Positions 18,744 through 57,470 of a stretch of 64,000 nucleotides of DNA are shown one piece after another. The notes beneath the pieces are model-generated. The model was not told where the DNA came from. It searched no databases and worked only from the letters and a program-made list of their open reading frames with translations. Source of the DNA: Olivibacter jilunii (GTDB taxonomy: Bacteria > Bacteroidota > Bacteroidia > Sphingobacteriales > Sphingobacteriaceae); assembly GCF_900607235.1 (NCBI RefSeq), contig NZ_LR027852.1, positions 124,001 through 188,000 of the forward strand, read 5' to 3'. A program made the translations under genes and the position numbers. Each line of letters begins with the position of its first letter. Position 1 is the first letter of the stretch.

Positions 18744-18788
18744 GGGGGATTAGCGTATCAAATTTAAATGCCTTGCTTCTAAACAAGC

Positions 18789-18819
18789 TTTAACATATAG
18801 ATGCAGGGTGTTTATATTA
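18789..18819 (+). repeat. Flank repeat shared with 52110-52140
   Basis: A ~30-nt segment, TTTAACATATAGATG followed by CAGGGTGTTTATATTA, recurs with three differences at 52110-52140. Both copies lie immediately left of a structured element on the plus strand, although the elements have opposite orientation. Confidence 0.7.
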
Positions 18820-18820
18820 T

Positions 18821-19349
18821 AAGAACGTTTATTTTAACTTCTTTCTTTCTTTTCATTAAGTTTTCGTTTTTTAAGGCATTCAAGCTTTCCCTAAGGGGAA
18901 GGTCCGCGAAAGAAAAGAAGCAAAGAGACGACCGTAGGGAGTCCATGAACACCTTTGAAAATAATGAAGTAGTGAATAAAATCGCCGCTTCCTGCCTACC
19001 GCAGGCAGGCAAAATTTACAGGAATGGTAGTGCCTCCCACTGCATGATGTAAATTTTGGAGGCGGCATTTTAGTAGAACGATGGACTTTTACTTTTAACC
19101 AAGCGTACCATATCTTCAGCCCTAAATATAGCCCCGTGAGTTGGTAAAACGGCCTTGGAGGATACCGAGGCAACGAGCCGCAAAGCATTTGCATGTCTGT
19201 TCATGTGGCAATATCTAAGCGGATTGAGGAAGTGAAACGGCTCCAATACGCGCCAGCGATGCTTTGCAATCAGTTGCAAGGTAGCCTGCACAGCCTTGGG
19301 TTTTGTTCAACTTTTTGCCAAGAAAAAGTTGATTAAGAAAAACGTTCTT
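18821..19349 (-). repeat. Structured dispersed element, copy A
   Basis: About 529 bp bounded by AAGAACGTTT (18821-18830) and its complement (19340-19349). Read on the minus strand it contains an end hairpin (TCAACTTTTT 19307-19316 / 19323-19332), a core at about 19150-19300 that is roughly 85% identical to copy C, a GCAAAGCAT/ATGCTTTGC stem (19180-19188 / 19259-19267), and nested stems AAAATTTACA (19011-19020 / 19048-19057), TAAAATcGCCGC (18977-18988 / 19062-19072, one bulge) and AGTCCAT (18940-18946 / 19081-19087). Open frames inside it are short and inconsistent between copies. Confidence 0.75.
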
Positions 19350-19376
19350 TTTAAAAGTAACAAGAAAAAGCTCCAT

Positions 19377-29513: not shown

Positions 29514-29524
29514 GTATTGAGAGC

Positions 29525-30886
29525 TTATCTCAAATTAACAACTACATCCCATGAGCCATAACCATTATTTGCATAGTCTATCCTCCAATATCCGTTTGCA
29601 TCTTTTATGGCGAGGTCTGCTTTCCCATCTCCGTCATAGTCAGCGGGCGCTGGCACTGCATCGATTGAATTGCCATAGTTCGGAAATTTTAGGTCAAAAG
29701 AACCAAAACCTGTTGCGGCATAATCTATCCACCAATAACCATTGGTATCTTTGATTGCAAGGTCTGCTTTACCATCACCGTCGTAATCGGCTGGCGCTGG
29801 TATAGCATTTGAATATCCATAATTCGGTAACGAAACGTTAAAAGAACCAAATCCGTTTGCGGCATAATCTATCCACCAATATCCGTTTTTATCTTTAATA
29901 GCCAAATCTGCTTTGCCGTCACCATCGTAATCCGCTGGGACAGGAATGGCATCTGTCGAATTTCCGTAACCGGCGAATACAGCATCGATTGAACCGTAAC
30001 CATTATTGGCATAATCTATCCGCCAATAGCCATTATCATCTTTGATTGCTAAGTCTGCTTTGCCGTCACCATCGTAGTCGGCTGGTACAGGTAAAGCTTT
30101 GGGAGAGTTTCCATAATTTGGCAAAGCTATATCAATGGAACCAAATCCATTGGCTGTATAGTCTATCCGCCAATAGCCGTTCGAATCCTTAATGGCTAAA
30201 TCAGTTTTGCCATCCCCATCATAGTCAGCAGGTACTGGTACGGCCTCAATAGAATTGCCATAGTTGGCTAAAACCACATCCCAAACACCGAATCCGTTTT
30301 TTGCGTAGTCTATTCTCCAGTATCCGCTCGCGTCTTTGATAGATATATCCATTTTTCCATCTCCATCATAATCTGCTGGTACGGAAATTGAACCTGCGGG
30401 ATAAGGTGTTTCTATATCGCCTGCGGAAATCGTTCCATACGTCTTACTTGCATAATAATACGAAGACCATTTTGGCGTTGTTCCGCTATAAGTATCCCAA
30501 TAACGCCATTTGAGCTTCACAACTCCGGCCTTGTTATTTGGTTGCAGCTTTGCTGTTTTAGCAAACTCCTTACTCCAATAAGTACCGGTAGCTTGTGTAA
30601 AATCAGAGGTAGTTACAAAAATACTATCAGAAATTGCGGTTTCGAAGCCGTTGGCATCTAAAACATAGATCGCTTGCGCTTTAACTTGTGTGGAACCATC
30701 GTATCGTTGGAATTGCATGACGGTATTGAATGGAGTTTCGCCACTGTTGGACTCATACTTGATTTTCCCATCATGAAGATATATGTTTTGAACTCCCCAC
30801 ATCCCAATTTTTATATCTATCACTTGGCTCTTTGCCACATTGATTAAGGTAACAAAGGCTAATAACGTATATAGCAGCTTTTTCAT
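29525..30886 (-). CDS. Secreted FG-GAP/VCBS repeat protein
   Basis: 453 residues with a signal peptide (LLAFVTLINVAKSQ). Residues 1-150 form a separate beta-rich domain; the rest is six near-identical repeats of about 49 residues, each with PADYDGDGKADLAIKD, GYWRIDY and GFGS. The DxDxDG motif is a calcium-binding loop, as in FG-GAP/integrin-like propellers. It follows the small lipoprotein by one base, so the pair is one operon. It could be an adhesin or surface glycan-binding protein. Confidence 0.8.
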   Translation of the reverse strand: MKKLLYTLLAFVTLINVAKSQVIDIKIGMWGVQNIYLHDGKIKYESNSGETPFNTVMQFQRYDGSTQVKAQAIYVLDANGFETAISDSIFVTTSDFTQATGTYWSKEFAKTAKLQPNNKAGVVKLKWRYWDTYSGTTPKWSSYYYASKTYGTISAGDIETPYPAGSISVPADYDGDGKMDISIKDASGYWRIDYAKNGFGVWDVVLANYGNSIEAVPVPADYDGDGKTDLAIKDSNGYWRIDYTANGFGSIDIALPNYGNSPKALPVPADYDGDGKADLAIKDDNGYWRIDYANNGYGSIDAVFAGYGNSTDAIPVPADYDGDGKADLAIKDKNGYWWIDYAANGFGSFNVSLPNYGYSNAIPAPADYDGDGKADLAIKDTNGYWWIDYAATGFGSFDLKFPNYGNSIDAVPAPADYDGDGKADLAIKDANGYWRIDYANNGYGSWDVVVNLR

Positions 30887-46472: not shown

Positions 46473-46972
46473 AAAAGAACGTTTATTTTATACATCCCAC
46501 TTGCTGCGCCCATTGGGCCAAGGTGCTTTGGCTTGTCTATTCCGTTGCAACCCGTGGTCAGATGCCCATCCGTGAATCGGAGCCACCCTCTTGCGCAATG
46601 GCGTGCCCTTCGTTCGTCGATTCACTGATTACCGTCTGCTTCGCATAATAATGGTGAGGGGCATCTTTGACTGCCGGTTGCTGCCTCCATAGACTAGGCC
46701 ATTATCGTCCTTTGGAACGATTTTGCAACGGGCTATAGCGCAGGGCATAACGGCCTTCCAGGGTGAGCGTAAAGAAAATTCGGTTAGCAGGGCGTGCTAA
46801 AGTGTTATGCGAAAAAGCGAAGGGAAGGAATTGTGAATAGGGGCGGCTCCGCAGAACAGAGGGATAGGAACCGAATTTTTAGTGAGCACTGGATAGCCTT
46901 GATTGTTTGGTTCTTTATGATCAAGCATAAAGAACATATATTAAAAAAGTTGAATAAAATAAACGTTCTTTT
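46473..46972 (+). repeat. Structured dispersed element, copy B, with perfect terminal inverted repeats
   Basis: Exactly 500 bp between AAAAGAACGTTTATTTTAT (46473-46491) and its complement (46954-46972). Interior stems: AGATGCCC (46560-46567 / 46659-46666), GTGAATCG (46572-46579 / 46618-46625), AAAATTCGGTT (46775-46785 / 46869-46879), TGTTaTGCG (46803-46811 / 46850-46858, one mismatch) and the end hairpin GTTCTTTATG (46910-46919 / 46926-46935). The arrangement matches copy C with different base pairs in each stem. No convincing gene inside. Confidence 0.75.
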
Positions 46973-52007: not shown

Positions 52008-52109
52008 AAAATGAAAAATTTTCCTTAAGATATAAAAATTATACGACTATCGGCTTTTCTCCCTAAAATAGGGATTACCTTCAGTGAACTCCCTTTGGTC
52101 GGTTTCGCC

Positions 52110-52140
52110 TTTAACATACAGATGAAGGTGTTTATATTAA
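52110..52140 (+). repeat. Flank repeat shared with 18789-18819
   Basis: TTTAACATACAGATG then AAGGTGTTTATATTA; differs from the other copy by a few substitutions and one indel. It lies directly left of element copy C. Confidence 0.7.
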
Positions 52141-52562
52141 TTTGATCTCTCTTTACCTTGATGCAAAGAGAGGCAAACATCAAGGCTTTGTAGACTACCT
52201 TGCACCTGATGGCAAAGCATCACTGGCGCGTATTGGAGCCGTTTCACTTCCTCAATCCGCTTGGATACTACAATATGAGCAGAGGAGCAAATGCTTTGCT
52301 GCTCGTTGCGTCGGTATCCTCCAAGGCCATGTAAGTACTTCGGGACGGTTTTGCAAGGGGTTGGGAAGAACGGCCTCACAGCGTGAGCGTTAAAAAGATT
52401 TAGGATAGCCAAGGCAAAAAAATCATGTGAAAAAGTGAAGCGTGGCTTGGAGGGAGGAGCGGCTCCACATGATTTGAGCGATGGACCTAAATCTTTAGCG
52501 AAGGATGTGCAGCCTTGAACTTTTGGTTCTTTTCTTTCAAAGAGAAAAGAACAAATATTTTA
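52141..52562 (+). repeat. Structured dispersed element, copy C
   Basis: About 420 bp, core 85% identical to copy A but in opposite orientation. Stems: CTCTCTTT (52147-52154 / 52165-52172), GCAAAGCAT (52212-52220 / 52291-52299), AAAGATTTAGG (52394-52404 / 52486-52496), AAATCATGTG (52420-52429 / 52466-52475) and the end hairpin GTTCTTTTCT (52526-52535 / 52543-52552). No terminal inverted repeats as long as those of copy B were found. The rest of the gap to valS (52563-52720) has nothing recognised. Confidence 0.75.
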
Positions 52563-56670: not shown

Positions 56671-56749
56671 AATGACCGTGTTTGCGGATGTCTTAAAGAT
56701 ACAAAGCTAGGGAGATTTTTTTAATTAGTTATAAGTTGTACGTTATATA

Positions 56750-57470
56750 GTTAGTAGGGAGTAGTTAATAGGGAGTAGTTAATAGGGAGTAGTTAATAGG
56801 GAGTAGTTAATAGGGAGTAGTTAGTAGGGAGTAGGAAGTATGACAGGTTCACAGCTAACAGGTTCCCTTGTTCACTAATAAGGGAGTTAGTAGGGAGTAG
56901 GAAGTAGTTAGTAGGAAGTATGACAGGTTCACAGCTAACAGGTTCCCTTGTTCACTAATAAGGGAGTTAGTAGTTAGTAGGGAGTAGTTAGTAGGGAGTA
57001 GTTAGTAGGGAGTATGACAGGTTCACTGCTAACAGGTTCCCTTGTTCACTAATAAGGGAGTTAGTAGTTAGTAGGGATTAGTTAATAGGGAAGTAGTTAG
57101 TAGGGAGTAGTTAGTAGGGGAGTAGGAAGTAGTTAGTAGGAAGTATGACAGGTTCACAGCTAACAGGTTCCCTTGTTCACTAATAAGGGAGTTAGTAGTT
57201 AGTAGTTAGTAGTTAGTAGGGAGTAGGAAGTAGTTAGTAGGAAGTATGACAGGTTCACTGCTAACAGGTTCCCTTGTTCACTAATAAGGGAGTTAGTAGT
57301 TAGTAGGGATTAGTTAATAGGGAAGTAGTTAGTAGGGAGTAGTTAGTAGGAAGTATGACAGGTTCACTGCTAACAGGTTCCCTTGTTCACTAATAAGGGA
57401 GTTAGTAGTTAGTAGTTAGTAGGAAGTATGACAGGTTCACTGCTAACAGGTTCCCTTGTTCACTAATAGC
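56750..57470. repeat. Composite repeat array between hsdR-N and holA
   Basis: Seven copies of a ~55-bp block, each starting TGACAGGTTCAC (56841, 56921, 57015, 57145, 57247, 57356, 57429) and running through GCTAACAGGTTCCCTTG, TTCACTAATAAGGGAG. Blocks contain CCCTT/AAGGG hairpin arms. Between them are variable runs of GTTAGTAG, GGGAGTAG and GGAAGTAG. The array opens with five copies of a 14-bp unit AGGGAGTAGTTAAT. Spacing varies from 73 to 130 bp. It lies in a 970-bp gap between divergent genes; no cas genes are near. Confidence 0.85.

Follow-up and report, generated by a model that had tools for sequence, protein, structure and literature searches.

Copy B, a 500-bp segment of the Olivibacter jilunii genome, probably represents a decayed copy within a family of non-autonomous, MITE-like, ISAs1-type elements that carry an undescribed structured module. 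The family itself is mobile: its positions are species-specific, relatives have sites without the module, and target duplications flank part of the copies. The family is multicopy, short and non-coding, and the genome contains ~31 of its cores and 34 of its end motifs. The A-type core, a conserved structured module by comparative sequence analysis, is absent from Rfam and constitutes a candidate new RNA family. We refer to the whole stretch of 64,000 nt analyzed here as the window.

The inner module and its closing stem

Copy B, a palindrome-rich module (46473–46972, plus strand), measures 500 bp from end to end, as had been claimed. Its left arm is the perfect 19-bp repeat AAAAGAACGTTTATTTTAT (46473–46491, plus strand), and its right arm (46954–46972, minus strand) is the exact reverse complement. 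The round length is incidental; relatives with both arms span 349–606 bp. Within the window there are five matches to the 19-mer with up to three mismatches, versus 0.14 expected from shuffles. Copy A is an A-type module between such arms (18819–19351, plus strand, 533 bp end to end), with ATAAGAACGTTTATTTTAA at 18819 and AAAAGAACGTTTTTCTTAA, on the minus strand, at 19333–19351. A remnant of an outer shell, CTTTAACATATAGATGCAGGGTGTTTATATT, lies to its left (18788–18818, plus strand), and its conserved structured core (19151–19300, plus strand) scores 173.5 bits with the core model R1. The core of copy C is on the minus strand (52179–52328, 175.3 bits with R1), with outer shell sequences AGGGATTACCTTCAGTGAACTCCC...GATGAAGGTGTTTATATTA on the left (52070–52139, plus strand).

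The original prediction proposed a genome-wide search for the 19-mer, and the motif does recur: in the 6.7 Mb genome, the end motif AAAAGAACGTTTNTTTT with one mismatch was found 34 times (16 forward, 18 reverse) versus 0 for the reversed control, many matches being paired ends 370–540 bp apart. The two arms covary within elements and behave, therefore, as a closing stem, designated P1. In 36 copies with arms chosen by motif alone, same-element pairs had 389 Watson-Crick cells versus 366.6 ± 5.8 for exchanged arms (2 of 20000 permutations), and arms change together, as in AAGG/CCTT, AACATT/AATGTT, AAAGGAAGG/CCTTCCTTT and GAACTATTT/AAATAGTTC. Additionally, a scan for covarying helices in a MAFFT-based alignment of 35 A-type copies, made with no folding program, ranked highest P1, a 3′ hairpin, the pairing of the loop of this hairpin with upstream sequence, and further stems. 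The 19-mers are an inner closing stem and not transposon ends. The non-autonomous mobile element and the closing stem, first suggested as alternative readings of the same repeats, are both borne out, but for different sequences, because the mobile ends lie further out.

Copy B has relatives at C10:147598 and C2:256203, and L147 in genome G004. Its P1 arms differ from those of C2:256203 by one compensated pair (ACATTT/AAATGT in copy B, ACGTTT/AAACGT in C2:256203). Sequence reading, hairpin prediction and covariation among the A-type copies point to a 3′ hairpin, GTTCTTTATG-ATCAAG-CATAAAGAAC, at 46910–46935 (plus strand). The loop ATCAAG is complementary to CTTGAT at 46898–46903 (plus strand), read from the sequence as its putative upstream partner in a pseudoknot-like pairing that covaries in 35 A-type copies. 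The plus strand of copy B gave no match to model R1, and there was a weak minus-strand match within its left half (E 0.0017). Copy B is a member of a divergent subfamily, the B subfamily, in which the closing stem and the 3′ hairpin are retained. Since it lies outside the main core model, conclusions on the core extend to copy B only insofar as it shares the closing stem, the 3′ hairpin and membership of the dispersed family.

A conserved fold in the core

With a covariance model built on the A-type core (150 nt), matches were found in 23 of 301 Sphingobacteriaceae genomes, distributed in 5 of the 25 sampled genera, with E values down to 1e-33 outside Olivibacter. Neither the window nor 13 loci from the five genera matched an Rfam family above the gathering score, and no relevant paper on repeats of Olivibacter or Sphingobacteriaceae was found in the literature searched. 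The module has a multi-helix architecture with a 3′ pseudoknot-like hairpin, and its 3′ element, in which a hairpin with the loop NTCAAG comes after GCCTTGAN, recurs in other genera, where it was read and scanned; a P1-like closing stem was not convincing in these genera. Among 28 core sequences, 95.8% of the cells pair, and two-sided changes occur in 30 of 37 pairs, versus 12.3 in shuffles and 7–13 with slid partners, in an alignment that was fitted to the structure, which favors this result. The helix scan of the A-type copies described above is in agreement. On the core strand, G-T was tolerated over A-C by 37:12, and by 35:17 with the opposite-strand model, with p values that are optimistic because the sequences are related; this excess favors folding of the core strand as RNA or single-stranded DNA.

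A coding gene in the core was considered and rejected: neither the 104-aa ORF of copy A nor an antisense translation typed from the repeats matched Pfam, and the left modules differ by indels between copies. In MITEs, the ends are usually regarded as the only part that is maintained. Here the interior fold is preserved across genera through compensatory changes, which suggests a role for the folded form, and we infer that selection acts to maintain this form, either as RNA or as single-stranded DNA. It is possible, if somewhat short of probable, that the inner module is an undescribed Sphingobacteriaceae element, a large structured RNA (or single-stranded DNA) comprising a ~150-nt core and a 3′ pseudoknot, which spreads as a selfish entity and was captured in Olivibacter by ISAs1-type ends.

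The same data could also describe a family of structured non-coding RNA genes of Sphingobacteriaceae, trans-acting or selfish, for which the shell would be only the vehicle in Olivibacter, a reading that we hold to be plausible without being the probable one. The covariation across five genera, the presence of the 3′ pseudoknot-like hairpin in all five and the excess of G-T over A-C on the core strand agree with it; however, single-stranded DNA would also fit this excess, and the copies are variable and modular, are absent in the congener G001, and have no fixed orientation or neighbor. Alternatively, the covariation of the arms might come from mutation and not from selection, with template switching perfecting the quasi-palindromes of a decaying MITE whose fold is functionless. 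Nested inverted repeats do abound in the family, and template switching is known to act on short hairpins, but the P1 arms lie 350–600 bp apart, the loop-to-upstream pairing crosses a hairpin, G-T and A-C are asymmetric between strands, and within Olivibacter the sequence of the core hardly varies, all of which makes this origin unlikely.

The apical loop of the core (L060–L108, alignment columns 84–90) reads GYGNARC with a varying N (GTGAAAC, GCGAAGC, GCGTAGC, GCGGAGC, GCGCAGC), which we take to be the pattern of a GNA triloop; such triloops are very stable in DNA. In another genus, locus L092 (G017:C2, ~277500–278300) contains elements arranged in tandem that share the 3′ hairpin and the spacer insert but have a different core.

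Outer ends, target duplications and sites without the module

Positions of the family are species-specific: apart from one 45-base repeat match, no flanks are shared between 30 copies from this genome and 20 copies in related genomes. A concatenated flank query from nine copies identified in G003 or G004 orthologous flanks, up to 94% identical, that lack the module, the insertion polymorphism being compared between species only. The empty sites anticipated in relatives thus occur between species; some orthologous sites are occupied by short DNA of another kind and are therefore not cleanly empty. For instance, the G003 site orthologous to that of L089 (L164, G003:C90, ~66100) has a lone P2-like hairpin, TTTACTTTCTTCCGCAGAAAGTA, similar to the second stem of the module. 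Searches for phage, viral or plasmid carriage of the module gave no match. At the site of copy B itself, G002 is without the copy, and in G004 P1-like arms enclose ~115 bp of unrelated DNA. With the motif recurring in the genome and the copy missing from G002, the outcome that the original prediction named as undermining mobility was not observed. Copy B has no recognizable outer ends and no target duplication was found for it which, together with the stem-like arms in G004, suggests that it may be old; the argument for mobility is weaker for this copy taken alone.

Where intact, the mobile unit reaches outward to CAGGGATT...AATCCCTG and is flanked by target duplications of ~9 bp. The direct repeats at the outer ends are ~8–10 bp long, some with one mismatch (e.g., TTCATTCCA and CATAACAAAA), and in the 12 copies with both outer ends they scored 53 versus 8.7 ± 6.8, a value reached by none of 300 permutations. 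Both outer ends are recognizable in only ~12 of some 39 copies, and the target duplications that the original prediction suggested looking for are present in part of the copies. Because these duplications lie outside CAGGGATT/AATCCCTG and not beside the 19-mers, the latter are not the mobile ends. Many copies are enclosed in an extra layer that has CAGGGATTACC...GGTTTCGCCTTTAACATATAGATGAAGGTGTTTATATTA at one flank and TTTAAAGGCGAAATCCCTG at the opposite flank and can face either way with respect to the core, and the module occupies the same place in the shell across copies. Yet another layer, similar to GACTATCGGCTTTTTGNCCTAAAACAGGGAT, precedes some shells (L197, L112, L120, L127). A shell without module also exists, at C6:114133 (~58 bp, with ATCTAGCTA on both sides).

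Such empty shells, and the occurrence of the module in both orientations at one place of the shell, would be expected if the 19-mers were the ends of a second transposable element, with AAAAGAACGTTT ends, that inserts site-specifically into the shell repeat. We consider this improbable: there is no target duplication beside the 19-mer, the arms vary freely while remaining complementary, unlike protein-bound ends, and no transposase with 19-mer-type ends was seen. The hairpins near the ends and the conserved fold might recall a single-strand (IS200/IS605-like, Y1) transposition system, a class without target duplications or inverted ends, and the presence of both in this family makes movement of the module by such a system very improbable.

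A candidate transposase

The MITE-like reading requires a mover. In line with the original remark that the window has no transposase gene, whole-genome searches with PF01609, PF00872 and NF033564 placed no member of these three families there; the proposal of a partner acting in trans also stands, in that the family is mobile and would need such a transposase. Among the four elements of the ISAs1 family examined, ends could be fixed for two, CAGGGCAAACGCATTAAAA in the Olivibacter congener G001 and CAGGGCAATCGCACTA in Xanthobacter, both with 10-bp duplications, and the Nostoc and Vibrio copies gave no clear ends. Compared with the congener ISAs1, the shell end CAGGGATTTCGCCTTTAA is identical at 12 of 18 positions, among them those of CAGGG and CGC (p ~5e-5, shuffled letters). 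Genome G001 contains one ISAs1 transposase and no core copies, and no match to an ISAs1 transposase was found in the genome of copy B or in G002, G003 or G004. Past mobilization by ISAs1 is therefore an inference.

An ISAs1-family DDE transposase acting in trans most likely inserted the members with intact CAGGGATTTCGC... termini, and insertion would have duplicated ~9–10 bp of target; the agreement of the ends makes this transposase the putative mover of the family, and copy B itself may have arrived by an ISAs1-type insertion. Inside the shell there is a palindrome-rich module of 350–600 bp, consisting of P1 (the 19-bp repeats), hairpins, the structured core and the 3′ hairpin, the loop of which is complementary to sequence immediately upstream. 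The analysis found no coding function in the module, and pairing is kept while the sequence drifts. Other movers were considered: an IS4/IS5-type mover was rejected, since no CAGGG-type ends were found around the four PF01609 transposases of the genome; no IS256 mover was found; and no autonomous element with 19-mer or shell ends was seen.

Comparison with known elements

The family is a known kind of mobile element with an unusual cargo. As in ISAs1 elements and their derived MITEs, the outer ends are CAGGG....CGC.TT.AA and there are 9–10-bp target duplications, as in the congener ISAs1; in contrast, the Olivibacter element has no internal transposase, its interior is unrelated to the IS, and it carries a long structured cargo. 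It resembles BrickBuilt from Porphyromonas gingivalis, also a Bacteroidota MITE with non-coding internal repeats and IS-like ends. The ends of BrickBuilt are like those of resident IS, matching IS5-family elements, and it holds a minisatellite (PMC4596501), whereas the Olivibacter element has a conserved fold between ends that resemble those of ISAs1. Families of stem-loop repeats, such as ERIC and others, are likewise dispersed and intergenic, with conserved folding; they are mostly 50–300 bp and often single stem-loops (PMC2267715), whereas the Olivibacter module is larger, has pseudoknot-like pairing and spans genera. The many copies, the insertion-free sites and the candidate transposase would make this family suitable for testing whether structure helps an element to spread.

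Genomic neighborhood

Copy B is situated upstream of a gene with a META domain and is flanked on the opposite side by a PAP2 gene. The genes neighboring 29 copies are divergent in 12 cases, tandem in 16 (8 each way) and convergent in 1, and these copies showed no orientation bias toward their neighbors. This pattern is consistent with insertion into promoter-rich intergenic DNA and speaks against the module being a terminator or a fixed cis-regulator. A terminator or 3′-UTR element was rejected because just 1 of the 29 copies lies between convergent genes, and a cis-regulatory RNA because tandem copies divide 8/8 by orientation.

The window also contains two other repeated regions: an intergenic imperfect array of units similar to AGTTAGTAGGGAGTAGTTAATAGGG at 56709–57459, and six direct repeats of 144–147 nt at 29518–30393, inside a minus-strand ORF for a protein with tandem repeats.
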